A stretch of 64,000 bases of DNA, taken from Winogradskyella sp. PC-19. GTDB lineage: Bacteria > Bacteroidota > Bacteroidia > Flavobacteriales > Flavobacteriaceae. Positions 44,767 through 63,974 of the stretch are shown here, piece after piece (the stretch's first letter is position 1; each line of letters opens with the position of its first letter). A program made the position numbers and the translations under genes. The notes under the pieces are model-generated. The model saw nothing but the letters and a program-made list of their open reading frames with translations, was not told where the DNA came from and did not search any database. The DNA is taken from positions 2,335,145-2,399,144 of the forward strand of contig NZ_CP019332.1 of assembly GCF_002163855.1 (NCBI RefSeq). The letters run 5' to 3'.

Positions 44767-44770
44767 ACAA

Positions 44771-45921: not shown

Positions 45922-45922
45922 T

Positions 45923-46582
45923 ATGATTGGATATGTGCAAATTCACCGACAGATTATGGATTGGGAATGGTATCAATGCCCAAAGGTTTCTAGACTGTGG
46001 TTTCATCTCATTCTCAAAGTAAACTTCAAGGATAAAAAGTGGCAGGGAAAGCTAATTAAAAGAGGTCAAGTTATTACATCTAACGAGAAGTTGGCTAATG
46101 ACCTATCACTAACCATACAAGTTATTAGAACTGCGCTTCAAAAACTTAAAGATAGCGGTTGCATAAAGATAACTACAACAAACAAATACACGCTTATAAC
46201 CGTTGTTAATTACCATCATTTTCAATCTTCAGAAGCTTCTAATAACAACCAGAATAACATTCAGAAAACAAACAAACAGCAAACTAACAACACTAAATCA
46301 ACAACAACTAAAGAAGGTAAAAAAGAAAATAACTTAAATAAAGTAAAAATTAATGAGAGGCGTAATATATTCAAAAACAAAGTTTTTGCACTCACAACGT
46401 TTAATTATAAAGTTTTAAATGATTTTTTTAAGTATTGGAGTGAGTTAAATGCGAATAAAACTATGATGCGCTGTGAAGCCGAGAGGTTTTTTGAAATTGA
46501 AAAGAGATTAGAAAAATGGAATAAAACCGAAAAGTTTTCTAAAGGGTTAGTTTCCATAAGTAATGAAGACGATAATAGGTAA
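45923..46582 (+). CDS. Winged-helix replication-initiation-type protein
   Basis: A 219-residue protein. The N-terminal 100 residues (MIGYVQIHRQIMDWEWYQCPKVSRLWFHLILKV, then GQVITSNEKLANDLSLTIQVIRTALQKLKDSGCIKI) match phage replisome-organiser or DnaD-like N-terminal winged helices. A low-complexity Asn/Gln/Lys/Thr linker (about 108-140) and a helical C-terminus follow. It is probably the origin-binding partner of the DnaC-like loader encoded 5 bp downstream. No repeat-based origin inside the gene is obvious to me by eye. The linker is where iterons could hide, so this should be examined. Confidence 0.7.
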   Translation: MIGYVQIHRQIMDWEWYQCPKVSRLWFHLILKVNFKDKKWQGKLIKRGQVITSNEKLANDLSLTIQVIRTALQKLKDSGCIKITTTNKYTLITVVNYHHFQSSEASNNNQNNIQKTNKQQTNNTKSTTTKEGKKENNLNKVKINERRNIFKNKVFALTTFNYKVLNDFFKYWSELNANKTMMRCEAERFFEIEKRLEKWNKTEKFSKGLVSISNEDDNR

Positions 46583-46587
46583 TAGAA

Positions 46588-47292
46588 ATGAGAATAAGTA
46601 AAATAATGATACTAAACGACCTTATAAGTTCAAGAAACATGATGCCACCAGAAATAAAAATTTCAATTAAAAAAGAGGATTTGTGGAATGATTTTAACGC
46701 TATGTTTCGCAAAATGTATAAAAAAGGCTTTACTCAAAATGACCAGACATTAGCCAATCTTAAAACTCTATTTTATTATTTTTTACGTGATGATAAGTTT
46801 TTTGTTCAGGAAAATATCCATGCTAATTTAAGTGTTCCATCTTTTGATAAAGGTCTTCTAATTGTTGGAAGCTACGGAGTTGGGAAAACCGCATATTTAA
46901 AAGTTTTTGAAAAAATATTTTACTCAAATCCTCATTTAAGATTTAGAGGTTTTAATACCAAATCAATCGTAAGTGATTACGAACTGTGTAATACACCACT
47001 AGATAAAAAACTACTTAAAAATAAGATGATGCGAAAATTACTTTTTATAGATGACCTAAATGCTGAAAGAGTTGCTAATAACTATGGTAAAGTAGAACTA
47101 ATGGAAGAAATATTATCTGAACGCTATGCTAATAATCTAAAAACCATTGTGACTTGTAATTATACCAATAAAAATAGAAGTGTTGAGGAAACTTTAAGCG
47201 ATTTTTCTAAAAGATATGGTGGTAGATTACATGATCGCATTTTTGAAATGTTCAATATTATTGAATTTAAAGGTAAAAGCATGAGAAGATAA
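46588..47292 (+). CDS. DnaC-like helicase-loader ATPase
   Basis: A 234-residue AAA+ protein. Walker A is GSYGVGKT at 94-101, Walker B is LLFIDDLN near 150, and a sensor-type stretch TIVTCNYTN follows. RYGGRLHDRIFEMF near the end matches the arginine-finger region of DnaC/IstB-type loaders. It would load the host replicative helicase onto the element. There is no transposase upstream, so an IstB role is unlikely. A strong terminator begins at the stop codon, so the integrase-to-loader block forms its own unit. Confidence 0.82.
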   Translation: MRISKIMILNDLISSRNMMPPEIKISIKKEDLWNDFNAMFRKMYKKGFTQNDQTLANLKTLFYYFLRDDKFFVQENIHANLSVPSFDKGLLIVGSYGVGKTAYLKVFEKIFYSNPHLRFRGFNTKSIVSDYELCNTPLDKKLLKNKMMRKLLFIDDLNAERVANNYGKVELMEEILSERYANNLKTIVTCNYTNKNRSVEETLSDFSKRYGGRLHDRIFEMFNIIEFKGKSMRR

Positions 47293-47324
47293 AAACGTTA
47301 AATAAAGCGTTATTTAACGTTTTT
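47291..47324 (+). terminator. Terminator after the DnaC-like gene
   Basis: A perfect 15-bp stem AAAAACGTTAAATAA and its complement, with an AGCG loop and a terminal T run. It begins within the stop codon of the loader gene. Confidence 0.9.
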
Positions 47325-47345
47325 CAGTCCAAAAAATAGCATAAA

Positions 47346-47759
47346 ATGGGAAAATTAAGCTTTTGTAAACATTGTCAACAACAATTTGAGTCACGTAGAA
47401 GTAATCATTTATACTGTACACCCAGTTGTAGGACAAAAGCCAGTTATCAAAGAAACAATTATAGATATGTTTCAGGGCATTATGAGAAAACAACAGAAAT
47501 TAATTCTGAACAATTAGCCTTACCAGTGAATAATGAATTATTGTTAGCGGTAAAAGAATTAGAAAAAAAAATTGAAATGTATAGTCAAAAAAAGACTATT
47601 AATACAAATGGAATAACGGAGGCTGCTATTGGGAATGCAGCTTCTGATGCAACAATTTATGCGGTAAAAAAACTTTTGGCACCTAAAACATTACCTGCTA
47701 CAAAAGGAGATATAGACCGGCTCTTGTATGAATTAAATGAATTAAAAAAGAGTATATAG
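47346..47759 (+). CDS. Small zinc-finger protein of unknown function
   Basis: A 137-residue protein with an N-terminal zinc-knuckle, Cys7, Cys10, Cys24 and Cys28 (CKHC...YCTPSCRTKASYQR), resembling bacterial treble-clef fingers found near phage replication genes. The rest is helical and Lys/Glu-rich. It follows the terminator by 21 bp, so it probably has its own promoter. It may bind DNA or single strands in element replication; no enzymatic motif is seen. Confidence 0.7.
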   Translation: MGKLSFCKHCQQQFESRRSNHLYCTPSCRTKASYQRNNYRYVSGHYEKTTEINSEQLALPVNNELLLAVKELEKKIEMYSQKKTINTNGITEAAIGNAASDATIYAVKKLLAPKTLPATKGDIDRLLYELNELKKSI

Positions 47760-48023: not shown

Positions 48024-48336
48024 ATTAATGTTGGCATAAAAAAATTAACTAAGACCTTACCTTTATATAATCATGTGTTTAATTATCAGTAATCGAGTCT
48101 TCAAGGGTCATTCATAGAGCACCAGCATGCTTACATTCTATGGCTTTAAACTTTTCCAGTGTGCTTCGTTTTTCTTGAAGAGCTCATATCTCAAATAATT
48201 TTCTTTTTTAGTGTATTGCAGCAGGATTAAAAATAGGATTTATTTATAGTAAAGCTTTTGTGGGAACGAGGGCTTTTTCTATCTTTAAAGTCTCCCACAA
48301 ATTTAGTTGTTACTTTACAGTACTTAACCAACACTT
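48024..48336. other. Gene-free gap before the restriction operon
   Basis: 313 bp without a credible gene. It contains the hsdR leader. The only structure I see is the inverted repeat at 48259-48303. Base composition becomes more balanced from about 48080 onward, which marks the change from the AT-rich replication block to the restriction cargo. Confidence 0.5.
48259..48303 (+). promoter_or_regulatory. Inverted repeat in the hsdR leader
   Basis: TTTGTGGGA (48259-48267) and TCCCACAAA (48295-48303) are perfect inverse copies with a 27-base spacer that contains CTTT and AAAG able to extend the stem. It ends 33 bp before hsdR and could be an operator or a structured leader. Confidence 0.4.
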
Positions 48337-51300
48337 ATGGCATTTAACGAAGACTCAAGAGTAAAATTACCTGCAATTCTGCACTTAACCCAACTGGGGT
48401 ACACATACCTTTCATTAAAGGATAGCGTATGGGATGAAGAAACCAATATGTTTACGGATATATTTAATGAAGCCATCCATCGTATCAATCCTGAATTACT
48501 AGAGAGCGATATCGAACGTTTGTATCAAGAAATCAGTCTAGATTTAGAAAACGAGGATTTAGGAAAAGCATTTTTCGATAAACTAATCAGTCGCTCTGGT
48601 GTAAACTTGATTGACTTTGAAAATTTTAAAAACAACGACTTTCATGTGGTCACCGAGTTGACTTATAAAAATGGAGAAGACGAGTTTCGACCAGATGTTA
48701 TCTGCTTGATTAACGGAATGCCATTGGTATTTATTGAGGTAAAGAAACCCAATAACATGAATGGTGTGATAGCAGAGCGCGACCGCATCAATAAACGCTT
48801 TCAAAATAAGAAGTTTAGGAAGTTTGTGAACTTAACCCAGTTCATGATTTTTTCAAACAATATGAAATATGATGATGACGAAATTGAACCTTGGCAAGGC
48901 GCTTATTATGCATCACCATCCTATTATAAACCACAGTTTAATTATTTCAGAGAAGAGATAGGATTCAATTTATCTAAAGAATTGAAACCATTGGATGCAT
49001 CAGTTGAAGATTTCCTGCTAAAGGATACCAATTACATCAGTGTAAAAAACAATCCTGAATATATTACCAATAAGAATCCCGATTCACCAACGAATCGTAT
49101 TCTAACTTCAATGCTGTTAAAAGACCGCCTGAAATTCATTTTGCAATACGCTTTTGCTTATGTGAAGGAAACTACTGGTTTGCAAAAGCACATTATGCGA
49201 TATCCGCAATTATTTGCTACAAAAGCGATTGAAGAGAAATTGGATAAAGGCATTCGTAAGGGGATTATTTGGCATACACAAGGATCTGGTAAAACGGCTT
49301 TGGCATTTTACAACACGCATTTTTTAACGGATTATTACCAAAAGCAACACATCATACCCAAGTTCTATTTTATCGTAGATCGATTGGATTTATTAACCCA
49401 AGCGAGAGATGAATTTACAGCACGTGGTTTAAAAGTGCATACAGTTAGTTCAAGAGATGAGTTTGTGGCTGACCTTAAAAAAACATCAGCTGTAAATAAT
49501 GATAAAGGGCAACGCGAAATTACCGTTGTAAACATTCATAAGTTCAAAGATGACCCTGAAGTAAGCACTACCACAGATTACAACATCAACGTGCAACGCG
49601 TTTACTTTTTAGATGAGGTACACAGAAGTTATAATCCACAGGGTAGTTTTTTGGCTAATCTTGAGGAATCTGATAGAAACGCTATAAAAATTGGTTTGAC
49701 CGGAACACCATTGATTGGTAAAGATGTAAAATCCAAGGATTTATTCGGTGGTTATATCCATAAGTACTATTACAACAAGTCGATTGCGGATGGTTATACG
49801 TTGAAGCTAATCCGTGAGGAGATTGAAACCGAATACAAAATCAAGTTCAAGAAAATTCTTGATGATTTAGATATTAAAAAGGGCGATATTGATAAGCGTC
49901 GCTTGTATGCGCATCCTTCTTTTGTCGCACCAATGCTGGATTATATTGTCAACGACTTTGAAAACTTTAGACGTCTTAAAGGCGACCCAAGCACAGGCGC
50001 TATGGTGATTTGCGATAGTAGCGACCAAGCCGAAGAATTGTATAAAATATTCAATGCAACATACAGAGATGCTGACGAAGCCGATAATCAATTGCCAATG
50101 GCGGCAGAGCCTGAACCAGACTATCTGAGAAAACTCAAAAACGACTATAAAGTCAAAAAGGCCGCACTCATTTTATATGATGCTGGTAGCAAAGAGGAAC
50201 TAGAAGCTTGGCGAGACGATTTTAAGGCTGGTAAAATAGATATCCTCTTTGTCTATAATATGTTATTGACTGGTTTTGATGCCAAGCGACTAAAGAAAAT
50301 CTATTTGGGTCGTGTTATAAAAGCGCACAACCTTTTACAAGCCTTAACTAGAGTTAACCGTAAATACAAAGACTATCGCTATGGTCATGTAGTGGACTTT
50401 GCTGATATTTCAACGGAGTTTGAAAAAACCAATAGAGATTACTTTAACGAATTACAGAGCATTTTAGGAGATGAGATGGAAAGCTATTCTAACCTCTTTA
50501 TGACCAAAGAGGAAATGACTGCTTCCATTAGAGACATTAAAGAAGTGCTTGCTGATTACGATTTAAAGAACGCCGAAAATTTCTCTTCTCAAATCTCACA
50601 GATTTCAGACCATGGCGAAATGCTACAAATTAAAAAGGCGCTAGAGGATGCACGCTCGTTGTATAACACCATTCGCTTACTGGGTGAATATGACTTATTG
50701 GAGAAGATGGATTTTACCAAGCTAAATGCTTTACGTATTGAGGCCGTAAACCGATTGAACCTTATTAATGCCAAAGAGGCGTTTGATAACAACGAGGAAG
50801 TAGGCAACCTGCTCAATATGGCTTTAGAGGACATTGTTTTTGATTTTCATAAAGTTGGTGAAGAAGAATTAGTGCTTGCTGGAGAACTTAAAGACACCTT
50901 AAAGAAAACGCGCGAAGCTTTAGGTGGTAGTTTTGATAGAAAAGACCCAGAATGGGTAAGCCTTTATGAAGAGTTACGTCGATTGTTTGATGATAGAAAT
51001 CTCAATGAAGTATCCCAAGCCGAAATGCAAGAGAACATCACTTCATTACGTTCAATACATGAGCGCATCAAAGAATTAAACAGACGTAACGATTTATTAA
51101 AAGAAAAGTACGAAGGCGACCCTAAATATGCTCGTGTTCACAAACGCTTGTTAGAAGCTGGTAAACCTTCTAAACTAAAAACGGTTATTATTGAAGCTTT
51201 ACAGCAAATTAAAGAACAAACCGATTTGGCGGTACTCTCGCGTAACGATAGTTTAAGTAACGAAAGTTATTTTGCAAGCCAGGTAGCACGATTGGTGTTT

Positions 51301-51411
51301 GCCGAATTTCAAAAGTCTTCACAGACCAAACTGGATGTGTCAACCACCAAATTTATAACACAATTAATAGTAGACGAATACCTTAACGAATATCACGGAA
51401 AATCCGCATGA
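48337..51411 (+). CDS. hsdR: Type I restriction endonuclease, R subunit
   Basis: A 1024-residue HsdR. The N-terminal nuclease domain shows the PD-(D/E)XK core Asp120 (EFRPDVICL) and Glu134-Val-Lys136 (FIEVKKPN). The SF2 motor follows: Walker A TQGSGKTA near 314-321, DEVH near 425 (FLDEVHRSY), GLTGTPL and a late TGFDAKRL plus QALTRVNR. A helical C-terminal domain (about 760-1024) binds HsdM. It cuts DNA after ATP-driven translocation when HsdM-HsdS meet unmodified sites. It overlaps hsdM by 4 bp. Motifs are intact, so it is probably active. Confidence 0.95.
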   Translation: MAFNEDSRVKLPAILHLTQLGYTYLSLKDSVWDEETNMFTDIFNEAIHRINPELLESDIERLYQEISLDLENEDLGKAFFDKLISRSGVNLIDFENFKNNDFHVVTELTYKNGEDEFRPDVICLINGMPLVFIEVKKPNNMNGVIAERDRINKRFQNKKFRKFVNLTQFMIFSNNMKYDDDEIEPWQGAYYASPSYYKPQFNYFREEIGFNLSKELKPLDASVEDFLLKDTNYISVKNNPEYITNKNPDSPTNRILTSMLLKDRLKFILQYAFAYVKETTGLQKHIMRYPQLFATKAIEEKLDKGIRKGIIWHTQGSGKTALAFYNTHFLTDYYQKQHIIPKFYFIVDRLDLLTQARDEFTARGLKVHTVSSRDEFVADLKKTSAVNNDKGQREITVVNIHKFKDDPEVSTTTDYNINVQRVYFLDEVHRSYNPQGSFLANLEESDRNAIKIGLTGTPLIGKDVKSKDLFGGYIHKYYYNKSIADGYTLKLIREEIETEYKIKFKKILDDLDIKKGDIDKRRLYAHPSFVAPMLDYIVNDFENFRRLKGDPSTGAMVICDSSDQAEELYKIFNATYRDADEADNQLPMAAEPEPDYLRKLKNDYKVKKAALILYDAGSKEELEAWRDDFKAGKIDILFVYNMLLTGFDAKRLKKIYLGRVIKAHNLLQALTRVNRKYKDYRYGHVVDFADISTEFEKTNRDYFNELQSILGDEMESYSNLFMTKEEMTASIRDIKEVLADYDLKNAENFSSQISQISDHGEMLQIKKALEDARSLYNTIRLLGEYDLLEKMDFTKLNALRIEAVNRLNLINAKEAFDNNEEVGNLLNMALEDIVFDFHKVGEEELVLAGELKDTLKKTREALGGSFDRKDPEWVSLYEELRRLFDDRNLNEVSQAEMQENITSLRSIHERIKELNRRNDLLKEKYEGDPKYARVHKRLLEAGKPSKLKTVIIEALQQIKEQTDLAVLSRNDSLSNESYFASQVARLVFAEFQKSSQTKLDVSTTKFITQLIVDEYLNEYHGKSA

Positions 51412-53036
51412 CAACAGAAAACACACAACGCTTTACACAGCAAACCAAAGACCTCATTGACGAACTCAAATCCGTTTGTGCCAGTTATGGCTTAGGCAAT
51501 GATGGTAACGAATTTAAAATCATTAGCCAGATTTTTCTATACAAGTTTATAAACGACCGTTTCGCTTATGAGATAAAGAAATTAAAACCAGAATTGGAAG
51601 GTACGGACAATTGGGAAGCACAACTGGCAGAACTAGCCGAAGCAGATTATGAGGTTTTACAGTTTGAAATGAATGCTTCTACGGCCTTTTTGAAACCACA
51701 CCAGTTGTTGGGTTATTTGTTTCAACGCCAAAATGAACCTGATTTTGCCAAGTTGTTAGACGATACCTTAATGGATATTGCCGCTGATAATAACGAACTT
51801 TTTGCCGTAAAGACCGAAGATGGACAAAAGGTGCAACTCTTTGACCGCATTACCGAATATGTGCGTAGTAAGCGCGATGCCTTTGCTGTAGCTTTGATTA
51901 ATAAACTGGTGATTTTCAATTTTGAAAACATCATGGAAGAAGGCTTTGACTTTTTCTCAACCATTTTTGAATATTTAATTAAAGATTACAACTCTGATGC
52001 AGGTGGCAAATATGCCGAATACTACACACCACACGCCGTTTCTAAAATCATTGCTAATATATTGGTACCAGAACCAGTGAGCAACGTCACTATTTACGAC
52101 CCAAGTGCAGGTTCAGGGACACTTTTAATGAATTTAGCACATGCTATTGGGCCAGATAAGTGTACGGTCTATTCACAAGACATATCTCAAAAATCGTCTA
52201 ACCTATTGCGATTGAATTTAGTGCTGAACCAATTGGTACATAGTATTGAGAATGTGATACAAGGCAATACCATGACCGACCCTTACCATCGCAAAGATGG
52301 TGATGTCCGCAAGTTTGACTATATCGTAAGTAATCCACCGTTTAAGTTAGATTTTAGCGGTGATGTGGATGTGCTTAAGAAGAAAGAAAACAAAGTGCGT
52401 TTTTTTGCAGGCATACCCAATATACCTAAAAAGGCCAAAGATAAAATGGCAATTTACACACTGTTTTTACAGCACATTATGTATAGTCTTAATGAGACAG
52501 GAAAAGCTGCAATTGTTGTGCCTACAGGATTTATTACGGCGCAATCTGGTATCGATAAAAAAATACGACAAAAACTGATTGATAATAAAATGTTGGCAGG
52601 TGTGGTAAGCATGCCATCTAATATTTTTGCTACGACAGGTACTAATGTATCCATTGTGTTTTTGGATAAAGAAAACAAAGAAGATGTAGTCTTAGTAGAT
52701 GCTTCTAATTTAGGAACCACGGTAAAAGAAGGTAAAAACCAAAAGACAGTATTGAGTGTTACTGAAGAAGACCAAATCATTAAAACATTTACAAATAAAG
52801 AAGCTATTGAAGATTTCTCAGTAGTGGTAAAATATGATGATATTAAAGCCAAAAACTATAGTTTAAGTGCAGGCCAGTATTTTGAAGTAAAAATTGAATA
52901 TATAGATATTACTACAGAAGAATTTGAAGACAAGTTGAAAGACCACGAACACAATTTAGATAGGTTATTTTCAGAGAGTACTCAGTTAGTAAGTGAAATT
53001 AAGAGCCAATTAAAAGTTTTAAAATATGAAGGTTAA
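51408..53036 (+). CDS. hsdM: Type I restriction-modification DNA methyltransferase, M subunit
   Basis: A 542-residue HsdM. The N-terminal helical part (about 1-160) includes LLGYLFQRQ. The N6-adenine methyltransferase domain has motif I DPSAGSGTLL near 228 and motif IV NPPF near 309. A C-terminal KNYSLSAGQYFEV segment links to the specificity subunit. It methylates adenine at the site read by HsdS and forms part of the restriction complex with HsdR. It overlaps hsdR by 4 bp and hsdS by 11 bp. Confidence 0.95.
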   Translation: MTTENTQRFTQQTKDLIDELKSVCASYGLGNDGNEFKIISQIFLYKFINDRFAYEIKKLKPELEGTDNWEAQLAELAEADYEVLQFEMNASTAFLKPHQLLGYLFQRQNEPDFAKLLDDTLMDIAADNNELFAVKTEDGQKVQLFDRITEYVRSKRDAFAVALINKLVIFNFENIMEEGFDFFSTIFEYLIKDYNSDAGGKYAEYYTPHAVSKIIANILVPEPVSNVTIYDPSAGSGTLLMNLAHAIGPDKCTVYSQDISQKSSNLLRLNLVLNQLVHSIENVIQGNTMTDPYHRKDGDVRKFDYIVSNPPFKLDFSGDVDVLKKKENKVRFFAGIPNIPKKAKDKMAIYTLFLQHIMYSLNETGKAAIVVPTGFITAQSGIDKKIRQKLIDNKMLAGVVSMPSNIFATTGTNVSIVFLDKENKEDVVLVDASNLGTTVKEGKNQKTVLSVTEEDQIIKTFTNKEAIEDFSVVVKYDDIKAKNYSLSAGQYFEVKIEYIDITTEEFEDKLKDHEHNLDRLFSESTQLVSEIKSQLKVLKYEG

Positions 53037-54357
53037 TGTAGGACAAGACTTATACTTAAAAGGACGAATTGGCTGGAAAGGACTAGCTAAATCAGAATAT
53101 CTAGAAAAAAGTGGTTACAGAATTATAAATGGATATTCTTTAAAAGACGGATATATTGATTGGAAAATTGCAGGCTATATAAGTCAAGAAAGATATGAAG
53201 AGTCGCCAGAAATTAAACTGGAAATAAATGATATTCTAATTTCAAAGGACGGCACAATTGGAAAAGTTGGAATTGTTCGAAAATTAGAAATACCTTCAAC
53301 AGTAGCATCTGGAATATTTGTTTTAAGAAACATCGTCGAAGATTGGTTAGATACCGAATATTTATTTCAATTTTTGAAAAGTTCCAATTTTAAAAATTTT
53401 ATTAATCGTGTTAAGGCAGAAGGTTCAACTATTAATCATCTTTATCAAAGAGATTTAGTGAGATTGGAAATTGATATTCCTGATATTATAGAACAAAAAA
53501 GAATTTCTAAAGTTTTAAAAAATATTGATGACAAAATAGAAGTCAACAACAAAATCAATGCAGAGTTAGAAGCCATGGCAAAAACCATTTATGACTATTG
53601 GTTTGTACAGTTTGATTTTCCTGATGCCAATGGCAAGCCTTATAAATCTTCTGGTGGTAACATGGTGCATAATGAAGAATTAAAACGTGAGATTCCGGAG
53701 GATTGGGAAAAGGGCGTTCTGGATGATATTGCAAAAATTGTAAGAGGTGTTTCTTATAATAAACATGATATAAAAACACCGAATGATGATGGCGTCACTC
53801 CAGTTCTAAGAGCTACGAATATTACCGGAAACATCATAGACTTGGAGAATATGGTCTATGTTCCAGATGAGTTTGTTAGTGAAAAACAATTAATGAATAA
53901 GTATGATGTTTTAATCACAATGTCTAGTGGAAGTAAGAACCATATTGGGAAAAATGGACTGTTCTACTTCAAAACAAAAGTTGCTTTTGGTGCATTTTGT
54001 GCAAAATTAGAGGCAAAAGAAGATTTCCAGTTTTACTTATCAAGTTACATGCAATCTGCCTTTGTTTCTGAAACTATTAAAAAAGAATGTTTAGGCACAA
54101 GCATCAACAATTTAAATGGTTCATTAGTTAAGGGATTTAGACTTGTAAAACCGAATGAACAAGTATTAAAAAGCTTCAACAAAAAAATGAAGCCTATCCA
54201 CGATAAAATCGGAAATAACCACAAAGAAAACCAAAAACTCGCTGCCTTACGCGATTGGTTATTACCCATGCTTATGAATGGGCAGGTTACGGTTGGTGAG
54301 GCTAAGGGAGAATTGGGTATGGTCGGGGAGGATAATACTAAATATGGTGATGTATGA
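53026..54357 (+). CDS. hsdS: Type I restriction-modification specificity subunit S
   Basis: A 443-residue HsdS with two target-recognition halves. The first (about 1-155) begins almost at the initiator Met. A conserved helix follows (IIEQKRISKVLKNIDDKIEVNNKIN), then YDYWFVQFDFP. The second half is about 215-385, with a closing helix ending NQKLAALRDWLLPMLMNGQV. Each half reads one half of the split target, so site specificity cannot be told from sequence. No inverted partial hsdS copy is visible, so phase-variable shuffling is not indicated here. The start overlaps hsdM by 11 bp and the end overlaps the ATPase gene by 4 bp. Confidence 0.92.
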   Translation: MKVNVGQDLYLKGRIGWKGLAKSEYLEKSGYRIINGYSLKDGYIDWKIAGYISQERYEESPEIKLEINDILISKDGTIGKVGIVRKLEIPSTVASGIFVLRNIVEDWLDTEYLFQFLKSSNFKNFINRVKAEGSTINHLYQRDLVRLEIDIPDIIEQKRISKVLKNIDDKIEVNNKINAELEAMAKTIYDYWFVQFDFPDANGKPYKSSGGNMVHNEELKREIPEDWEKGVLDDIAKIVRGVSYNKHDIKTPNDDGVTPVLRATNITGNIIDLENMVYVPDEFVSEKQLMNKYDVLITMSSGSKNHIGKNGLFYFKTKVAFGAFCAKLEAKEDFQFYLSSYMQSAFVSETIKKECLGTSINNLNGSLVKGFRLVKPNEQVLKSFNKKMKPIHDKIGNNHKENQKLAALRDWLLPMLMNGQVTVGEAKGELGMVGEDNTKYGDV

Positions 54358-56318
54358 GGTTAGCGGCTGTTTTTATTCCTAATGGCGTATTAACATACGT
54401 GTTTGGTGAAAATCATAAAGGATATACACTTAATCTAGGTGGTAAATATAATTATGAGTTTACAGAGATAAATAATTTACCAGTTTTAAAAGAAAAACTA
54501 CCTAACCCAAATTTTATTAAAGGTTTTTGGGGGTCAAATTTATACTTGGTTTCGGCTATAGTTGGAGCTAACGGAACAGGTAAGACTTCTATTTTAAATG
54601 TCTTTAGAAACAGGTCGTTCTGTTTTTTTATTTATGAAAATGAAAAAAATGATACGTATAAAATTGGTGATAGTACTGATAACATTTTTGATATTATATA
54701 CTATTCTCCCTTTTTAAACATACAAAATCATGACTATGTAAATTCTAATTTCAAAGATGTGTCTAAGTATGAGTTAATGTTAGAAGATACTGAATATGAG
54801 AACATAGAATTATCAGCACAGCTGGAATTGCATAATTCGGAAAATTTAAAACGATGGATAAAGTTTAGACAGATGTCTAATATTGAGTTTTTTTTAAATT
54901 ATGTTGCATTACCTGTTTTTAATAAAATTAATGTAAAGATTAATTTCGTAGGACCTCGTGTTCATGATACACCTTATAAATTTAGACCATTTTTTGAGCG
55001 CTTTAAAGTTATAAAGGACGAGGAAGAAATTGCGAAATTTGACAAATTACGGGAACTAAACCCTATAACGAATGAAAAGAAACGACCGCGACTATTTGGC
55101 AATAAAATAAAATTGGAGTTACAAATAATTGAGCGGGTTATAGATAAGGTTCAAAATATTCTTGAAATGTCAGGAAATAAATATTTGAATGAGGGTTATA
55201 TTAATAATAGTTATACTCCAGATAGCTCAGATTTCAAAAAAAATAAAGATTTAAAAAGCGCTTTTTATTTTTTTATAGATAATGCTTTTATTCAGCTGAG
55301 TAAGGGTAGTCAGAAAATATTCTTACCTACTAGAGAGATAAAAGACTTACTCGAACTACTTCTATCTCATATTCCTGAAAAAGATGTTGAAATTGAGAAT
55401 TGGACAGAACTACAAATATCATTTAAAGACGCACTACAGCTTTTAGATGCTTATGAAAACTTTATTATTTCATTTAAAGATAACTTTAGCTTAGATAGAA
55501 AAATTTTACTAACATTTCGACCAGATAAAAACTTGAGTTCTGGAGAAAAGGGTATGTATAATTTATTTTCTTCTTTGTATGATTATCAATTCAAAGTTGA
55601 TAAACAAATTTTTAACGAGTACAATAGATATTCGACTAAGGATGTGGCCAACGATAATTATTTATTACTATTAGATGAGGCAGATATGGGATTTCATCCT
55701 CAATGGAAGAAAAAGTTTGTAAAATCAATTTTAATGTTATTTAGAATTATTTTTCCTAACCAAAAAATACAAATATTATTTACAACACATGATCCTTTAA
55801 CGTTGTCAGATATACCAAAAAGTAATATTGTTTTTCTAGATAAAGACAAAAATTCAAAATTAACCTATGTTTTGCCTCAAGATAGAAAAGTTTCAAAAAG
55901 AAGTTTTGGAGCAAATATTCATGACCTATTAGCTGACAGTTTCTTTTTAAAAGATGGCTTTATGGGAGAATTTGCAGAGTACAAAATCGGAGAATTACTA
56001 AGAAACTTGAATTTTCTCATTTTAGGAAATGAAATTGAGGATTTAAATAATAAGGGTAATAAAAAAAATAGAGAGCTTTTAAAAATAAAGAAAGCTGAAT
56101 TTATGAGGTTAGAGAGTTTTGTTACCTCGAAGGATGAAGACTACATAAAGTCTGTAATTGATATTGTTGACGAGCCTATTTTGAAGTTTAAGCTTGAAGA
56201 AATGTATGATCGAGCATTTCCTAATAATGTAGATAAAAAGGATGCGTTATTTAGAGCAAAAGATATTCTCGGAAGAGCTGGACTAGATATTGATGATTTA
56301 ATTGATGATGTAACATGA
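54354..56318 (+). CDS. ABC/SMC-type AAA ATPase of an ATPase-HNH nuclease pair
   Basis: A 654-residue ATPase. Walker A GANGTGKTS is at 71-79. A long insertion (about 100-380) is followed by an ABC-signature-like LSSGEKGMYN near 394-403, Walker B LLLLDEADMGFHP near 438-450 and a switch-like FTTHDPLTLSD. This order is that of the OLD/RecF-type (AAA_15/AAA_21) ATPases used in defence, for example PtuA of Septu. There is no TOPRIM domain, so the nuclease is supplied by the HNH gene, which overlaps by 4 bp. Its own start overlaps hsdS by 4 bp. The exact system is not identified. Confidence 0.85.
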   Translation: MRLAAVFIPNGVLTYVFGENHKGYTLNLGGKYNYEFTEINNLPVLKEKLPNPNFIKGFWGSNLYLVSAIVGANGTGKTSILNVFRNRSFCFFIYENEKNDTYKIGDSTDNIFDIIYYSPFLNIQNHDYVNSNFKDVSKYELMLEDTEYENIELSAQLELHNSENLKRWIKFRQMSNIEFFLNYVALPVFNKINVKINFVGPRVHDTPYKFRPFFERFKVIKDEEEIAKFDKLRELNPITNEKKRPRLFGNKIKLELQIIERVIDKVQNILEMSGNKYLNEGYINNSYTPDSSDFKKNKDLKSAFYFFIDNAFIQLSKGSQKIFLPTREIKDLLELLLSHIPEKDVEIENWTELQISFKDALQLLDAYENFIISFKDNFSLDRKILLTFRPDKNLSSGEKGMYNLFSSLYDYQFKVDKQIFNEYNRYSTKDVANDNYLLLLDEADMGFHPQWKKKFVKSILMLFRIIFPNQKIQILFTTHDPLTLSDIPKSNIVFLDKDKNSKLTYVLPQDRKVSKRSFGANIHDLLADSFFLKDGFMGEFAEYKIGELLRNLNFLILGNEIEDLNNKGNKKNRELLKIKKAEFMRLESFVTSKDEDYIKSVIDIVDEPILKFKLEEMYDRAFPNNVDKKDALFRAKDILGRAGLDIDDLIDDVT

Positions 56319-57292
56319 TTTACTTAGGAGATCAATTTAATGCATTGAATGAGTATAGTAAAGTAGCTGTTTGTTGGCTTGGTGTAAAACTTAAAGGTAG
56401 AAATACTTACAACTGCGGAGATTCTACATGTGTTTTTTGCAATGGTAATGGAAAAAAAAGGTCAGGCTTAGATCAAGATTTTAGGAATTTATTTACTGAT
56501 AGCGTAATACACGAGTTGGTAACGGCCAAACCTATCAGGCTTTTTCAATTACATAATATTTTACTTACAGAATATGTATCTATTCCAGGAAAAACAGTAA
56601 ATAATTTTAAAAGATATTGTAAGCTATTGTTTGTAGATTCTGGATACACAAATTGGTTTCTAAAAGAGAAAAAAAACTATTGGCTTGCTAATTTATTAGA
56701 TCAACATACATGTACTTATTGTAATAGAGAATACATATTCATTTATAAAAACAAAGCTGGAGGTAAAGGGATGGTGCCACAATTTGATCACTGGTTTGCA
56801 AAAACAGATTATCCGTTATTAGGATTGTCGTTTTATAATTTGATTCCATCTTGCGCGACCTGTAACGCTATCAAATCTACAACTACTTTTAATTTAGTAG
56901 ATCACTTACATCCGTATGTTGACACTAATATTTCATCGTCATATATGTTTAGTTATTTACCAATAAGTGTGACAAATAATCAATTAATATTTAAGAATAA
57001 TTCGCTTTTTAATTTCAAAGGTCTTGATACGGTTAGTGCTCTCAATTTACCTTTAATCTATGAAGGCCACTCAACTAAAGAATTACAAGATTTAATTGAT
57101 TTGCGATATAAGTACTCAGATAATTATCTAAACATACTTTTAGAAAAAACGTTTGGTCATCTTGATATTCCAAAAGAAGAAAGATATAGGTTAATTTTTG
57201 GAATTGAATTAGAAGAAGAAAAATATCACAAACGGATATTCAGTAAGTTTAAAAATGATATAATTAAAGAATTACTTTCAATAAATAATTAA
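56315..57292 (+). CDS. HNH endonuclease partner of the ATPase
   Basis: A 325-residue protein. An N-terminal zinc cluster is Cys34, Cys39 and Cys42 (YNCGDSTCVFCNG). A central HNH domain has Cys133 and Cys136 (CTYCNREY), Asp158-His159 (QFDHWFAK) and Cys180 and Cys183 (SCATCNAIKS). This is the zinc-bound HNH fold used in restriction and in PtuB-like defence nucleases. Residues about 230-325 are helical and may contact the ATPase. The start overlaps the ATPase gene by 4 bp and the stop is immediately followed by the mcrB start. It probably cuts nucleic acid when the ATPase senses phage; the trigger is unknown. Confidence 0.85.
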   Translation: MIYLGDQFNALNEYSKVAVCWLGVKLKGRNTYNCGDSTCVFCNGNGKKRSGLDQDFRNLFTDSVIHELVTAKPIRLFQLHNILLTEYVSIPGKTVNNFKRYCKLLFVDSGYTNWFLKEKKNYWLANLLDQHTCTYCNREYIFIYKNKAGGKGMVPQFDHWFAKTDYPLLGLSFYNLIPSCATCNAIKSTTTFNLVDHLHPYVDTNISSSYMFSYLPISVTNNQLIFKNNSLFNFKGLDTVSALNLPLIYEGHSTKELQDLIDLRYKYSDNYLNILLEKTFGHLDIPKEERYRLIFGIELEEEKYHKRIFSKFKNDIIKELLSINN

Positions 57293-60200
57293 ATGTCAAA
57301 TATTACTATAGATAACTTAAAACAACAAGCAACGTTACTTAATCTTCTAAGTAACGACGAAGAAGCGCTTTTTAATTACTTAAATACTAACCAAGATAAT
57401 CTGGATGAAGTTATACAACAGTATAAACCAGAAAACGAGTTTAGGCCTGTAAATACATTACGTTTTTTAATAGCCAACGAACTTAAAAAAGGTAATAAAA
57501 TAAACGCTGAGGTTATTAATCAATTAAAACAAGCTTTAGAAAATAGAGATGTTTCAGGGTATTATAGTCTTAGCGAAATAGTGAAGCAAAGCTTGATAAA
57601 TTATAAACAGAGTAAGGTTGGTATGTTTCCCAATTGGAAACAGGTGTATAAAATATTATTTCCATTTATTCATAATCAATCCGATAATGAGCAAGTAAAA
57701 GCATCTCTTAATCAGCTGGCTGATGAAATTATTACTTCAAATCAATTTCAAAATGTTACTAAGCACATTGTTAGTTTCCAAGGTCCACAAAATTATGGGG
57801 CAGATCATGCATGGGTGGCCATAATACCAGAGTCTTCGCCAAGTGTTCAGTATGCATATCAAATGTTTTTTGTTGTAGATGTAAATGGTTTGGGTGGTGG
57901 CATCCATAAAGGGCATAATTTGACAAAACAACAATTTGAAAATCAAGATTTAAAATTTAATAGTTGGGAAGATTATTTAGAGCATACTAAAAATACCAAA
58001 GAACAATGGATACAGCTAAATTCTGATATCAATTTTCTTTTTATAAATGATGAAAAAGCATTTGTAAAAACACTTAAAAAAGTTGAGGCATCTTCAGTGT
58101 TAGATTATTTTAAAATACTCGATAGACTAAAGGAAGATTTGGATATTCAGGACGAAGAAAAACTAGTCTTTAGTATTGCAAAAAATCGGTTGAGTTTTCA
58201 AGTGGGTAAACGCTATTGTCTAAATGTAAACAAGCAACTATTTGACTTTATTTCTTATAATGACTCAGATGGTCATCAAAACGAAAATAAAGAGGTTTTT
58301 AGCGGTACAGAAACTGCATATCTGTATAAGAGTAGAAGTGCAGATATTGTTTTTAATAATTATGAAGAGATAAAAGGTGCTGTTGCGATAGAAATTGATA
58401 GAGATAATCATGCCTTAGCCAAAACCTATGATAACAGTGCCTTTAGGAAAGCTGTTTTTGATAAGGACTACAGGTTAAAGTTTATTAAAGGTGATTTTTA
58501 TAGCGATAAAATAATTTTAGATGGACAAAGAATATTCAAAATTTCAATGGGTAAAGACTATTTTAATGATGAAGCTATCGAAAAAGCAATTAACGAAAAG
58601 TTAGTTTTAGTTCATTCTGAAACTAAACCTAAAGGACGTTCTAAAATATCTCAGGCTGATATTTTTATAAATCAAATTAGAGATGGTGATTTTTTCTATT
58701 TAACCCATAGTAACAAGAATGTAAAATTAATTGGAAGTATAACTTCTCCTTCAAAACCAGCTACTTTCAATAATATGCATAATTATGGTTGGTTAGAAAG
58801 AAGTTTTGAACCATTAATAACGCCAATTAAAGAAAGTGCATTTAACGGAAAAGGTAAGTATTGGACTCCTAATACAGTTACAACGTGTTGGGAAATAAGT
58901 GAAGATGAAATTGAGGAAGCTAATAGAGTTTTATTCAAGCCTTTTTTTAACATTGAATTTATAAATAATGACATGGAAAATAAATTTAAAGAATTTTTAA
59001 ATCTTTCATTGTCTGAGGGAACTGTTAAAACTTATCTCTCAGCAATAAGGTCCTTAGAAAAACTTGCTAAATCTGAAGGTCTTAGAACTTTTAAAATTTA
59101 TGAGATAACAAATGTTTCAGCTTTTCAGGACTTTTGGACGACATTGAAAAAGATTCAATCATATATAATAACTAATGATAAACACCACAATAGGTATAGT
59201 TCAGCACTTCTGAAATATGAGGAATTTTTATATTCATTAAAGAATACCGTTATAACAAATAGAAAATATATAGCACCACTAAACCAAATCTTTTATGGTC
59301 CACCAGGAACGGGAAAAACCTACAATACCATTTTAGAATCTGCTAAAATTATCACACAAAATCCAGATATTAGCTATACAAAAGCATTAGAGGTTTTTAA
59401 TGAAAATTTACGAGATAAAATAGAGTTTATAACGTTTCATCAAAATTATAGTTATGAAGATTTTATACAAGGTTTACGTCCAGATGTAGAGCAGAAAGCA
59501 TTGAGCTTTAATAGAGCAGATGGGGTATTTACCAAAATGGTAACTAATGCATTGTTTGAGTACTATAAAGAGTATCAAAAAAAGCAAAAGCAAGTGCATA
59601 ATACTGTGGATGCAAAAATAGACTTAAATGATGCTTTTATCGAGTTTATGAATACTTTAGAAATTGGTCAGCAATTTAACACTAAAACAGGAGGAATAGT
59701 TAAAGTTTATAATTTTACAGATAGACAGAACATAGAATTTAGACCAATAAATGGAGTCAAGTCATATTTAGTTTCTGCCAATCGTTTGCTCAAACTATAT
59801 AAAGTTTATGACGACATAGACAACATTAAAAGAGTTAATGAAGATATTAGAGAGGCAATAGGAGGTTGTAATTCTACGATGTATTACGTCGCTCTAAGAG
59901 AATTTATCGACTTCTTAAAAAAATATAAGGAGAGTGTAGATGAGTTTGTAGATGAAGAGGAAGAATACGATTATGATGATATTACTTATCGGAGAAAAAA
60001 GGAGCTGTTATCTAATTTTAGTTTAGAAGAACTAAGAAGCGTATCCAAGCATGAAGTTTCAAAGTATGTTATTATTATTGATGAAATAAATAGAGCAAAC
60101 ATTTCTAGAGTTTTCGGTGAGCTTATTACGCTTATAGAAAAAGACAAACGCTCTCATGGTAAAATACCACTTAAATCAATTTTACCATCAGGAGAGTCTT

Positions 60201-60589
60201 TTATTGTGCCATCTAACTTATATATTATTGGTACAATGAATACGGCAGATAAGTCTATTGCACTTTTAGATATTGCATTACGAAGACGTTTTGAGTTTGT
60301 GCCAATGTATCCAGATTCTAAATCTACAGAAGATAAAGTAGTAAAGGATTCAAATATTTTAGATGCTATCAACGAAGAAATCATAAATAGAAAAGGACAT
60401 GATTTCACTATCGGTCATTCTTATTTTATGGGAGAAGACTATGACTTAAAAAACACTATTGATAATAAAGTAATTCCTTTATTACTAGAGTATTTTATGA
60501 ATGATTTTGAGGAAGTGAAAAAAATTATGAGCGCAGCAAACATAACTGTTGATGGTTGGCCAATGCAATATATACCTAATGACAACTAA
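57293..60589 (+). CDS. mcrB: McrB-like AAA+ GTPase with extended N-terminal recognition region
   Basis: A 1098-residue McrB-type motor. Residues about 105-270 resemble the MrcB_N/DUF3578 domain. Residues about 450-555 resemble an EVE/PUA-like modified-base pocket (DIFINQIRDGDFFYLTHSN, VKLIGSI), followed by a helical segment. The AAA+ domain is C-terminal: Walker A GPPGTGKT near 670-677, the McrB hallmark IDEINRANISRVFGEL near 929, and GTMNTADKSIALLDIALRRRF near 981. McrB recognises modified DNA and drives translocation for McrC cleavage. The start codon follows the HNH stop directly, and it overlaps mcrC by 11 bp. The domain borders are estimates by eye. Confidence 0.88.
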   Translation: MSNITIDNLKQQATLLNLLSNDEEALFNYLNTNQDNLDEVIQQYKPENEFRPVNTLRFLIANELKKGNKINAEVINQLKQALENRDVSGYYSLSEIVKQSLINYKQSKVGMFPNWKQVYKILFPFIHNQSDNEQVKASLNQLADEIITSNQFQNVTKHIVSFQGPQNYGADHAWVAIIPESSPSVQYAYQMFFVVDVNGLGGGIHKGHNLTKQQFENQDLKFNSWEDYLEHTKNTKEQWIQLNSDINFLFINDEKAFVKTLKKVEASSVLDYFKILDRLKEDLDIQDEEKLVFSIAKNRLSFQVGKRYCLNVNKQLFDFISYNDSDGHQNENKEVFSGTETAYLYKSRSADIVFNNYEEIKGAVAIEIDRDNHALAKTYDNSAFRKAVFDKDYRLKFIKGDFYSDKIILDGQRIFKISMGKDYFNDEAIEKAINEKLVLVHSETKPKGRSKISQADIFINQIRDGDFFYLTHSNKNVKLIGSITSPSKPATFNNMHNYGWLERSFEPLITPIKESAFNGKGKYWTPNTVTTCWEISEDEIEEANRVLFKPFFNIEFINNDMENKFKEFLNLSLSEGTVKTYLSAIRSLEKLAKSEGLRTFKIYEITNVSAFQDFWTTLKKIQSYIITNDKHHNRYSSALLKYEEFLYSLKNTVITNRKYIAPLNQIFYGPPGTGKTYNTILESAKIITQNPDISYTKALEVFNENLRDKIEFITFHQNYSYEDFIQGLRPDVEQKALSFNRADGVFTKMVTNALFEYYKEYQKKQKQVHNTVDAKIDLNDAFIEFMNTLEIGQQFNTKTGGIVKVYNFTDRQNIEFRPINGVKSYLVSANRLLKLYKVYDDIDNIKRVNEDIREAIGGCNSTMYYVALREFIDFLKKYKESVDEFVDEEEEYDYDDITYRRKKELLSNFSLEELRSVSKHEVSKYVIIIDEINRANISRVFGELITLIEKDKRSHGKIPLKSILPSGESFIVPSNLYIIGTMNTADKSIALLDIALRRRFEFVPMYPDSKSTEDKVVKDSNILDAINEEIINRKGHDFTIGHSYFMGEDYDLKNTIDNKVIPLLLEYFMNDFEEVKKIMSAANITVDGWPMQYIPNDN

Positions 60590-61955
60590 TCTTTTCGAAT
60601 ATCAAAATAACGAAACCTTTTCAGAGCGTCATTTTGATGGTCTGGAAGAGTTTTTAGACGATATTTGGTCAAAAAGAGAAAAATCAAATTACTACTTTAA
60701 TGAAGAAGACAATAGAGTTGAGCAACAGCGTTTTGTTCAGTTTTTACATAAATCAAAAACACTAAAGTCTAATAAATATGTTGGTGTTGTACATTACGAA
60801 GGTCAAACAATAAATCTACTCCCAAAAATATTCTATAATGGAAAAGATCCAGAAGCTTATCAAGTAAACGCTATTAATAAACATATTTTGTGGTGGTTGA
60901 GTTATTGTAGAAAATTAAAATTTCCTAACTACCTATCTGCCTTAAACACTGAGAAGGCTGACTTTTTTGAGATACTAATATATCTTTTTAGTAAGTACAC
61001 AAGAGAATTATTAAACAGCGCTATTTATCAAAAATATACAGAGGTAAATAAAGAACTCTCTTTTGTAAAAGGACGTATAGATTTTGGTGCTTACATAAAC
61101 AAGAACTTATCAAGAGGAAGGAACCATAAAATTAGTTGCGAGTTTGATGCCTTTGAAATGGATAATGAGTTTAACAGATGTGTGAAGTTTGTTTCAAAAC
61201 TATTATTATCTGTTACAAAAGAACCTCAAAGTAAACGGTTTTTAAGCGATGTTTTGTTTATACTTGATGAGGTTAAAGACGTTAATGTTTCGTCTGACAA
61301 AATGAAACGTATGAGTTTTAACCCAATGTTTTCCGATTTTGAAACTATTCGAGATTATTGTGTTTTGTTTTTAGACAATAGTGTGTCGTTTAATTTTAAA
61401 AACGATTTAAAACTATTCGCATTCTTGTTACCAATGGAATATGTGTTTGAGGATTTTATATTTGGTTTTATTGATAAAGAAATCGATGAGATAAAGGCTA
61501 AAGATCAGGATAAATCTAGGTATTTAGCAGAAGGAAATAAATTTCAATTAAAACCCGATTTATTGTTAGAATTTGATAGTCGAAAAATTATTGCTGATAC
61601 AAAATATAAAATTGTTTATGACGATATAACAGATTCGAAAAATGGAATTGCACAAACAGACTTGTATCAAATGTTAGCCTATGCTGTTAGATTTAAAGTA
61701 AAAGAAGTTGTGTTGTTTTACCCAAATACGATAACTATGCGAAAACCAAATGATTCAGTATTGTTCTTAGTTGATGAATTGGCAAAAGGCGAGAGAGTTC
61801 AAATTAAATCGTGTCAATTACCTATCATAAATTTTAAGTTATTCGATGTAGATTATGTAAATGAAAAATCGATAGATTTGGAGTTTACAACTCAAAAAGA
61901 GCAATTGAAAATAGAGCTAATTAAAAGCTTAATGGCAGGAAATGCTAATAAATAG
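60579..61955 (+). CDS. mcrC: McrC-like endonuclease subunit
   Basis: About 458 residues from the ATG at 60579 (MTTNLFEYQ), 11 bp before the mcrB stop. A longer in-frame start at 60549 is less likely. The DUF2357/McrC scaffold is followed by the PD-(D/E)XK core Asp327 (LKPDLLLEF) and Asp340-Thr-Lys342 (IIADTKYK). It is the cleavage subunit recruited by McrB. The protein is longer than E. coli McrC (about 350 residues) because of an extended N-terminal region. Confidence 0.9.
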   Translation: MTTNLFEYQNNETFSERHFDGLEEFLDDIWSKREKSNYYFNEEDNRVEQQRFVQFLHKSKTLKSNKYVGVVHYEGQTINLLPKIFYNGKDPEAYQVNAINKHILWWLSYCRKLKFPNYLSALNTEKADFFEILIYLFSKYTRELLNSAIYQKYTEVNKELSFVKGRIDFGAYINKNLSRGRNHKISCEFDAFEMDNEFNRCVKFVSKLLLSVTKEPQSKRFLSDVLFILDEVKDVNVSSDKMKRMSFNPMFSDFETIRDYCVLFLDNSVSFNFKNDLKLFAFLLPMEYVFEDFIFGFIDKEIDEIKAKDQDKSRYLAEGNKFQLKPDLLLEFDSRKIIADTKYKIVYDDITDSKNGIAQTDLYQMLAYAVRFKVKEVVLFYPNTITMRKPNDSVLFLVDELAKGERVQIKSCQLPIINFKLFDVDYVNEKSIDLEFTTQKEQLKIELIKSLMAGNANK

Positions 61956-61957
61956 TT

Positions 61958-62038
61958 TGGGAGAAAAAAGATTCTATTTATCTTTACGGTCAAGATAAGC
62001 AAGAACTATTTCCAATAGTCAACTTTAAACTTGTTTAT
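61958..62038 (+). other. Possible coding remnant between mcrC and the next gene
   Basis: Read from 61958 in a frame different from mcrC, the DNA encodes a coding-like 27-residue tract ending QDKQELFPIVNFKLVY. It lacks a start codon. The PIVNFKL part echoes PIINFKLF near the mcrC C-terminus. It may be the tail of a lost mcrC-like gene. Confidence 0.25.
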
Positions 62039-62039
62039 C

Positions 62040-63974
62040 ATGTCAAACATTCAATACAAAAAAGAAGCCCAAAACCTTTACAAAAGCAATAAGCTTTTTG
62101 AGGCTTACAGTTGTGCTTGGAAATTATCTTTTTCAGATTTTATTACTTGGTATACTAATCCTCAAAAAAGAAGAGGATTGTCTAAAAGTCAAACTTTTTT
62201 TAATAATTCTTTTTTTTATAATTCATTCTTAATTACCAAACCGCCTGTTTGGCTTCAGCATAATGATGCAATATTACTTTGGCATCACTATTTAGATTCG
62301 CAGAAAGAAATCTCACTTGAATTTGAATTGTATGTAGCTCATAACAATGCAATACTTTTTATTGAAGGATATAAGAATAGAAAAACCTTCTTAGATAGTA
62401 GTCGAATAAAATTGCTCGAAAGGAAACAATTGCCAGAACCCATTATAAATGAACTTAAAATCTGGGATAAATTCAATAATATCTTAAATTCAAATTGGAG
62501 TGATGTTCTCCAATTAACTGATAAAATAAATGCACAACCTCATGAATTATGCATGTCAATTTTTTCAGCCTTTGAAGCTTTTATTTATCAAGACTCTGAT
62601 AATAAATCTAGATGGTACTTTGCAGTTGAGGCTTTAAGTTTACTCGTGGCATTTATTCAAAATACATATGATTTTTCAGATATAAGTGTTGATTCAGACA
62701 CTCTTAATAAGTCATACCTTGAAAGCGTAATTAATCCTAATGCTATTGAACTTTTTAATAAAACTTTTGACTACGTCTTGTGTCGAAATAACGTTTACAG
62801 ATATGCTCACGAGCCAGGACTTAATGTCGTATTTGATGAAAACAATATAGTTTTCAAAGAATCCGAAGATTTTAATAAACAGTGGCAACGTGATGAGTAT
62901 AGATATTCAGTTAATGAAAATTTGTATTATGCTTTTGGAGAACAATTGTTTGACGAAGTGAAGAAGAATGAAAAAATCAAATTTATAAACGGTAATAAAG
63001 ATTCAAATAATCAATTAGGTAATGCGCGACAATTTGCAATCAAACAGGCAATAATTGACTTAGGTGTTCACGATGAGGACTTGAAAAACTGTAAGCTTCC
63101 TAATCTTAATTTGATTATTTCTTTTATGCATGGTATTGCATGGCGCAAATTAGAAACTTCAGAGAAGCCTTTGCATAAAATCTCGCGTACAAGACGCAAT
63201 AAATATTCACAAGGTATAGCAGAGCTGAATTATAAAAGTCGTTTTTCAGAGTTTATAATAATTAGTGATAAAAGCATCTTGTTTCAGGCAGCTGAGGCTT
63301 CTGGACTTAATTTGGCAAAACGAGAATTTGATCAATTAATTGATGCGTTCTCTTTTAACTGGATTGTTAAAAAATTTGATCCTATTACAATGCCTCTGAG
63401 TTTGTGGCAGAAACCATTCGTTAAATTAGGCAAACATGTTCTTTCTCCATTAAGTGTGTTAACTGGATTTACTGGTCTTTACACGATTTCAGAGTCAATT
63501 TTAAAAAACTTTAGACCTGGTGATGGAACAAGAATAGAAAATAGGTTAAAGGAGGTTTATCAAAATACAAGCTGGAAAACATTACTACTTGAAGATAATC
63601 AAGAATTTGGCGATATAGACGTGTTAATGGAAGATGAAAAAAGCATTGTGCTTATGCAGATGAAGCGCACGACTCAAAAAACAAATATGTTTGAACTTCA
63701 TAATCAACTGCGGCAAGATAAAAAAGCATTTAGTCAACTCTTAGAGGCAAAAGAAAGTATTGACAGTAACAAGAACATTCATCTTTGGTACGTAACTACA
63801 GCATTTGAAAAGGTTGGTACATGGGAGAATGATGTTTATCGTGTGAGTTATCAAGACTTAATTCATACGAAGCGGTTGTTAGATTCTGGAAGATTACGTC
63901 TTAAAAGTCTTAGTAGTTTTATAGAAATGATAGAGTCAGACTATCTGTATAATTTACGTAAACAAGATACTTGA
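62040..63974 (+). CDS. Unrecognised 644-residue protein with C-terminal PD-(D/E)XK-like nuclease motif
   Basis: Taken from the ATG at 62040 (MSNIQYKKEAQNLYK); a TTG at 62031 would add three residues. The first 480 residues are mostly helical with no motif I recognise (LWHHYLDSQ and ISFMHGIAWRKLE are notable). The C-terminal 140 carry EFGDIDVLMEDEKSIVLMQMKR: Asp527 and the Gln540-Met-Lys542 triad of Mrr/NERD-type restriction-endonuclease folds, with a plausible upstream Glu. It lies 84 bp after mcrC, outside the overlapping chain, so it may have its own promoter. It is probably a defence nuclease; the target and partner are unknown. Confidence 0.65.
   Translation: MSNIQYKKEAQNLYKSNKLFEAYSCAWKLSFSDFITWYTNPQKRRGLSKSQTFFNNSFFYNSFLITKPPVWLQHNDAILLWHHYLDSQKEISLEFELYVAHNNAILFIEGYKNRKTFLDSSRIKLLERKQLPEPIINELKIWDKFNNILNSNWSDVLQLTDKINAQPHELCMSIFSAFEAFIYQDSDNKSRWYFAVEALSLLVAFIQNTYDFSDISVDSDTLNKSYLESVINPNAIELFNKTFDYVLCRNNVYRYAHEPGLNVVFDENNIVFKESEDFNKQWQRDEYRYSVNENLYYAFGEQLFDEVKKNEKIKFINGNKDSNNQLGNARQFAIKQAIIDLGVHDEDLKNCKLPNLNLIISFMHGIAWRKLETSEKPLHKISRTRRNKYSQGIAELNYKSRFSEFIIISDKSILFQAAEASGLNLAKREFDQLIDAFSFNWIVKKFDPITMPLSLWQKPFVKLGKHVLSPLSVLTGFTGLYTISESILKNFRPGDGTRIENRLKEVYQNTSWKTLLLEDNQEFGDIDVLMEDEKSIVLMQMKRTTQKTNMFELHNQLRQDKKAFSQLLEAKESIDSNKNIHLWYVTTAFEKVGTWENDVYRVSYQDLIHTKRLLDSGRLRLKSLSSFIEMIESDYLYNLRKQDT

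Follow-up and report, generated by a model that had tools for sequence, protein, structure and literature searches.

A recurrent gene order of type I restriction–modification, a Septu-like nuclease pair and McrBC in Flavobacteriaceae: a probable composite immigration-control operon

The genome of Winogradskyella sp. PC-19 (NCBI RefSeq assembly GCF_002163855.1) contains, within 64,000 nucleotides of contig NZ_CP019332.1 (positions 2,335,145 to 2,399,144, the window hereafter), a chain of seven genes: hsdR, hsdM and hsdS of a type I restriction–modification (RM) system, an ABC ATPase gene and an HNH nuclease gene (here M62A and M62B), and mcrB and mcrC. The order of these three modules is not due to chance, as it recurs in six other genomes and mcrBC follows M62B more often than it accompanies a control defence gene. 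The chain is probably a composite operon for immigration control, built from three exchangeable modules, in which the central Septu-like pair would act independently and be triggered by infection.

All seven open reading frames (ORFs) lie on the + strand without internal stops, and the junctions from hsdR to mcrC measure -4, -11, -4, -4, 0 and -11 nt (Table 1); re-reading the coordinates reproduced the placement and junction sizes of the first-pass annotation, made from the sequence alone. The start of mcrC is the ATG at 60579, the mechanical ORF beginning upstream at a TTG (60549). The names hsdR, hsdM, hsdS, ATPase, mcrB and mcrC are backed by Pfam, NCBIfam or PADLOC, with the exceptions that profile searches gave no Pfam match for M62B and no PADLOC match for mcrB and mcrC. 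An HsdR motor nuclease, an HsdM N6-methylase and an HsdS with two recognition stretches make up the type I RM system, while a McrB with GTPase signature and a McrC-family nuclease (PF10117, AAA_5, NTADKS) make up McrBC; the match of McrB to PRK11331 is below that model's curated cut-off. The window has the layout of an immigration-control region, with hsdRMS, a slot and mcrBC in one direction. GC content declines from hsdR to hsdM (0.358), hsdS (0.327) and the genes from M62A to mcrC (0.28-0.30), which fits a mosaic origin. No terminator-like sites were found at the chain junctions on the + strand in a consensus scan, and sigma-70-like sites were not enriched (71 versus a shuffle mean of 79). 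The seven genes may form one transcript, as first proposed from their overlaps. For the long N-terminal part of McrB (57293-59340), where modified bases would be recognised, the only match is to Phage_int_SAM_5 at residues ~550-605; it stays below threshold (4.2e-4 when a piece was searched) and is unexpected for McrB.

Table 1. Genes and elements of the chain in the window
Feature	Coordinates	Strand	Remarks
hsdR, type I restriction subunit, 1024 aa	48337..51411	+	HSDR_N, SWI2_SNF2, ResIII, T1R_D3-like; GC 0.370
hsdM, type I adenine methyltransferase, 542 aa	51408..53036	+	N6_Mtase 1e-65; PADLOC MTase_I 7.9e-273
hsdS, 443-aa specificity subunit with two stretches for target recognition	53026..54357	+	Methylase_S, 2 stretches
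M62A, PtuA-like ABC ATPase, 654 aa	54354..56318	+	residues 1 to ~385: half apparently exchanged between lineages
M62B, PtuB-like HNH nuclease, 325 aa	56315..57292	+	C133/C136, D158/H159, N175, C180/C183 invariant in 50 sequences
mcrB, GTPase subunit with long N-terminal part, 1098 aa	57293..60589	+	AAA_5, PRK11331; GPPGTGKT and NTADKS motifs
mcrC, nuclease subunit, 458 aa	60579..61955	+	PF10117 8.4e-71; start chosen by overlap
Candidate eighth gene, 647 aa	62031..63974	+	homologue 60% identical 3' of mcrC in locus L154
Promoter-like element TTTG-N19-TATCTTTA before hsdR	48257..48287	+	Bacteroidota type, one base relaxed; weak

Among 397 Flavobacteriaceae genomes, M62B is present in 24, the HsdM family of the window in 23 (25 loci) and McrC in 59. 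The 24 M62B genomes yielded 23 loci after omission of a fragment with a stop (G264); M62A lies beside M62B in 21 of them, and L165 and L179 have no recognised M62A there. In stretches of ~20 kb, type I RM genes occur near M62B in 13 of the 23 loci, each time upstream and on the same strand, and mcrC lies downstream in seven, with one intervening gene in L148 and L171. The control, the cyclase PF18144 of cyclic-oligonucleotide-based anti-phage signalling systems (CBASS), has type I RM in 8/37 loci and mcrBC in 0/37, some control stretches being short at contig ends (5.5 kb in L183, 15 kb in L184, 16 kb in L188 and L192). Fisher's test gives p 0.011 for type I RM and 0.0006 for mcrBC, against one control family, uncorrected and with rows that are not independent. 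Seen from the other modules, M62B lies 3.2-5.5 kb downstream of hsdM on the same strand in 8 of the 25 hsdM loci (by coordinates), and mcrC lies at most 4 kb downstream of M62B in 7 of the 11 genomes that contain both. A wider scan of genome contigs kept 80 of at least 430 relatives, with gene content read by hand from hidden Markov model labels. Among the matches listed, type I RM genes precede the pair on its own strand in 18 of 80 loci, including all eight listed loci whose M62B is at least 46% identical to that of the window over nearly its full length. An Eco57I-type methylase precedes the pair in three further M62 loci, with an SduA_C gene in two of these; the CBASS control was scored for type I RM and mcrBC only.

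The complete order is found without extra genes in L079 and L176, with one extra gene each in L017 and L170, with one extra gene and mcrB in two pieces in L148, and with five extra genes in L012, where hsdR is cut by the contig end. In L157, a relic of 64 residues with 70% identity to the start of the window's mcrB comes after M62AB. This recurrence contradicts the possibility, raised with the original prediction, that the ATPase–HNH pair is an accident of one genome. Other genes are seen in these neighbourhoods: in L017, hsdR and hsdM are separated by a RhuM-Fic gene (4132-5130), and the comparable place in other loci holds ORFs of ~325-332 aa; AbiV-type HEPN genes precede M62A in L012 and L161; and a weak match to JetC of Wadjet (1.2e-7; L178:6188-9490) precedes M62AB with one ORF between.

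The position after hsdS is a slot of variable content. In the 25 loci of the window's hsd family, it is occupied by M62AB in eight and by other recognised defence-type genes in another eight; the remaining nine show nothing recognised or have an incomplete gene scan. Before mcrBC, the slot contains a Roc-COR-TIR gene (L149), a DRT2 reverse transcriptase (L154) or a KAP/PifA-like gene (L155); without mcrBC, it contains an Avs2-like (L147), Schlafen-type (L153), PDC-M33A (L152), PDC-S26 (L142) or PDC-S18 (L163) gene. That abortive-type genes of other families fill the same slot counts for the composite-operon reading. The arrangement resembles the enteric immigration control region of E. coli K-12, hsdR-hsdM-hsdS-symE-mcrB-mcrC, in carrying hsdRMS, a slot gene and mcrBC on one strand. 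However, symE takes the place of M62AB in K-12, the K-12 genes are gapped at hsdR-hsdM and around symE whereas all junctions in the window are 0 or overlapping, and McrB is longer in the window.

The K-12 region has been described as type I and type IV systems with toxin–antitoxin pairs (PMC12707154), and a McrBC census places the E. coli-type branch next to type I RM genes, in many cases in what could be one operon (PMC11090510). Defence modules embedded in type I operons are also known (PMC12255303, PMC11411939). TgvAB of the V. cholerae island VPI-2 and DarTG2 of enteropathogenic E. coli are each carried within a type I operon as an additional defence module, and an argument from complementarity has been made for TgvAB. 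Both are other module families at another insertion point, DarTG2 lying between hsdS and hsdR, and McrBC is not mentioned in the available text of either paper. No description of an hsdRMS-Septu-mcrBC operon was found in the openly licensed literature searched.

By fold, M62A and M62B form a Septu-like two-protein nuclease. M62A has the intact P-loop, signature, Walker B motif and switch histidine of a PtuA-type ABC ATPase, and M62B the fold and motifs of a PtuB-type HNH nuclease. Their adjacent genes overlap by 4 nt, and the pair is like PtuAB of Septu and of retron I-A in fold, motifs and gene pairing. M62A is longer than the compared PtuA-type chains (456-552 aa) and differs from them by an exchangeable front half. 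The best PADLOC models are PDC-M62A (1.3e-90) and PDC-M62B (1.4e-39), the adjacent genes of the PADLOC candidate PDC-M62, for which no tests were found in the literature searched. The retron I-A type (PtuABC) gains no support, as no reverse transcriptase matched among the eight genes at 48337-63974 and the msr-msd search, made via Rfam only, gave no match. A single scan of viral contigs with M62A alone, which reaches close relatives only, found no M62A relative. In L165 (12566-14248), M62B is joined in one protein to an extra N-terminal region that weakly matches TPR, and is 74% identical to the window's M62B from residue 69 onward. In L043 and L064, a second M62A-like gene lies directly 3' of M62B, the first M62A being in two pieces in L043.

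Two families of ATPase-linked nucleases can be set aside as families, though not as modes of action. PrrC and RloC consist of an AAA_13-type ATPase fused to an anticodon nuclease, which is set off by inhibition of the host RM in PrrC and by DNA breaks in RloC. PrrC also occurs in type I operons, but M62A matches only AAA_21 in Pfam, not AAA_13, and its nuclease is a separate HNH subunit without Pfam family. In PARIS, the nuclease partner is of the AriB type; its ABC ATPase AriA is related to M62A by profile and by fold, but M62B is PtuB-like. PDC-M62 calls have been counted as duplicates of DefenseFinder Septu in 203 of 244 such pairs (PMC11811056). Retron-Eco7 PtuAB depletes tRNA-Tyr and Septu EcB88 cleaves it, while another Septu is reported to act on nicked DNA (PMC11555353, PMC13096335). 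WonAB of V. cholerae, which halts translation, has been placed in a larger family of ABC-ATPase sensors with nuclease effectors and set apart from Septu by its authors (PMC12137116).

Comparison of distances indicates that the modules are swapped almost freely, so that the order is conserved and not the alleles. Distances agree within modules (r 0.99 for hsdR-hsdM, 0.77 for mcrB-mcrC) and hardly across them (0.21, p 0.02, for hsdM-M62B; 0.00 for mcrC-M62B, n 11), suggesting that the order is kept while parts are exchanged. A FastTree phylogeny of joined M62A and M62B (90 rows, from 101 pairs minus 4 duplicates and 7 short ones; a method that joins long branches more readily) places the window in a clade of eight rows with support 98, all eight behind type I RM. 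On this tree, the RM label changes 13 times (26 in shuffles) and the mcrBC label nine times, gains and losses being indistinguishable.

M62A and M62B themselves agree poorly (0.30), apparently because the front half of the ATPase, comprising the N-terminal lobe and middle, is swapped. Between L171 and L148, M62B is 78%, the ATPase back 61% and the front 31% identical; L157 and L017 show 80%, 56% and 27-28%, and L140 and L079 show 77%, 60% and 24-41%, respectively. Conversely, L171 and L172 are 61-70% identical in the front and 41% in M62B, and L013 combines an ATPase that is L140-like throughout (50-67%) with an L014-like M62B (70%). Domain clustering of 89 pairs (8 of 97 were left out for want of recognisable motifs) placed the back parts in one cluster, M62B in one cluster and the middles in 15. 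The front half thus appears to be an exchanged cassette and may be the trigger-reading part, although the M62A proteins of the window and L012 are similar across their whole length (60-70%).

In the favoured reading, a composite immigration-control operon, HsdRMS would cut DNA lacking host methyl marks and McrBC would cut DNA with foreign modified bases, as expected from their families. By analogy with PtuAB, M62A would restrain M62B under ATP-gated control until infection alters its state; freed M62B would then cleave tRNA or DNA and stop the infected cell, the trigger probably being read by the front half of M62A. The pair most likely acts alone, as a fail-safe against phages that pass restriction, and would benefit from a common promoter and a mobile island. 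An independent fail-safe is favoured because the pair is found with restriction partners of different classes and, in other loci, with none. The proposal that the pair guards or complements HsdRMS and McrBC is supported in part, a guard of HsdRMS being possible though less probable. The anti-phage action of the chain is predicted from its gene content. Several points weigh against this reading. M62A reaches 41 bits against the NCBI curated cut-off of 500 for PtuA of retron Ec78, a cut-off for that subfamily only, and the targets of PtuAB differ from one relative to another. The excess of RM linkage over general defence clustering is modest (p 0.011, with the limits given above). Separate evolution of the modules also fits a mere insertion hot spot.

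Such a hot spot is the core of a possible, if less probable, alternative, in which recombination readily brings defence genes into the hsdS-mcrBC gap and nothing but transcription ties the pair to its neighbours. Several unrelated modules in the same slot, their free exchange and the occurrence of CBASS near type I RM (8/37) agree with it, but the mcrBC linkage is specific relative to CBASS (7/23 versus 0/37) and persists behind a different RM class (L167, L169, L171). An unlikely alternative is that the pair guards RM: M62A would detect either a block of HsdRMS or an anti-restriction protein, for example a DNA mimic like Ocr, and free M62B in the manner of PrrC or PARIS, both described as RM guardians (PMC12707154). 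The pair does adjoin hsdS, every row of the window's clade is RM-linked, and AriA has been solved with Ocr. Against this stand the weak M62B-HsdM co-variation, a close sister pair that follows an unrelated HsdM, the three pairs behind an Eco57I-type methylase, and the 62 of 80 listed loci in which the stretch, short in several cases, holds no same-strand type I genes upstream. A guard responding to a phage protein instead of HsdRMS may still be at work, as the objections from co-variation, the sister pair and the Eco57I-type methylase would not touch it. It is similarly doubtful that M62AB is an abortive nuclease coupled to restriction by any enzyme class, firing during or upon failing restriction as sensed via the swapped front half. 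Least probable is an amplifier, in which DNA ends or fragments from any restriction class switch on M62AB for added nicking or arrest: its neighbours share predicted DNA cleavage (type I, Eco57I-type with SduA_C, McrBC, the JetC-like gene), but pairs without such neighbours exist.

Downstream, 62031-63974 may be an eighth gene of the chain, because its homologue in L154, the only one among the loci searched, lies 3' of a comparable hsdRMS-DRT2-mcrBC chain; the 86 nt preceding the gene are 80% identical there. The product has no Pfam family over cut-off, and its GDIDVL...MQMKR resembles, by eye, a PD-(D/E)xK-type nuclease motif. The promoter-like element before hsdR was judged by the Bacteroidota-type consensus and overlaps a predicted terminator-like stem at 48251-48276. 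In L049, hsdR is preceded by a sequence 96% identical to the 25-nt piece at 48272-48296, and a strict TTTG-N-TANNTTTG scan gave 3 sites in the window versus a mean of 5 in shuffles. An inverted repeat before hsdR, TTGTGGGA/TCCCACAA, occurs in 0/217 loci; no counterpart of the 58-aa ORF that precedes hsdR turned up in the loci examined, and an RptR-like regulator is therefore not claimed. The chain is preceded, within 43468-47759, by the gene of a tyrosine recombinase (the integrase at 43468) and by small genes of DNA handling, namely HTH_17, replisome-organiser-like and AAA genes; it therefore probably sits in an integrative element whose right end is outside the view. No attachment site is claimed, as the window holds no tRNA or tmRNA and 42900-64000 no Rfam match. 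Elsewhere, a tyrosine recombinase-like ORF on the - strand (17685-18857) stands beside a separate short upstream ORF, perhaps, by eye, as one interrupted gene.

Within Bacteroidota, the window would parallel the immigration control region of E. coli, with a Septu-like pair replacing symE; measured against one control, this pair is linked to McrBC more often than a CBASS gene. If the restriction-coupled reading were true, RM, a trigger-reading nuclease and McrBC would form a convergent three-step design, with nine changes of the mcrBC label on the tree. A swappable M62A front half would make the question of what triggers Septu-type ATPases approachable by comparing natural relatives.

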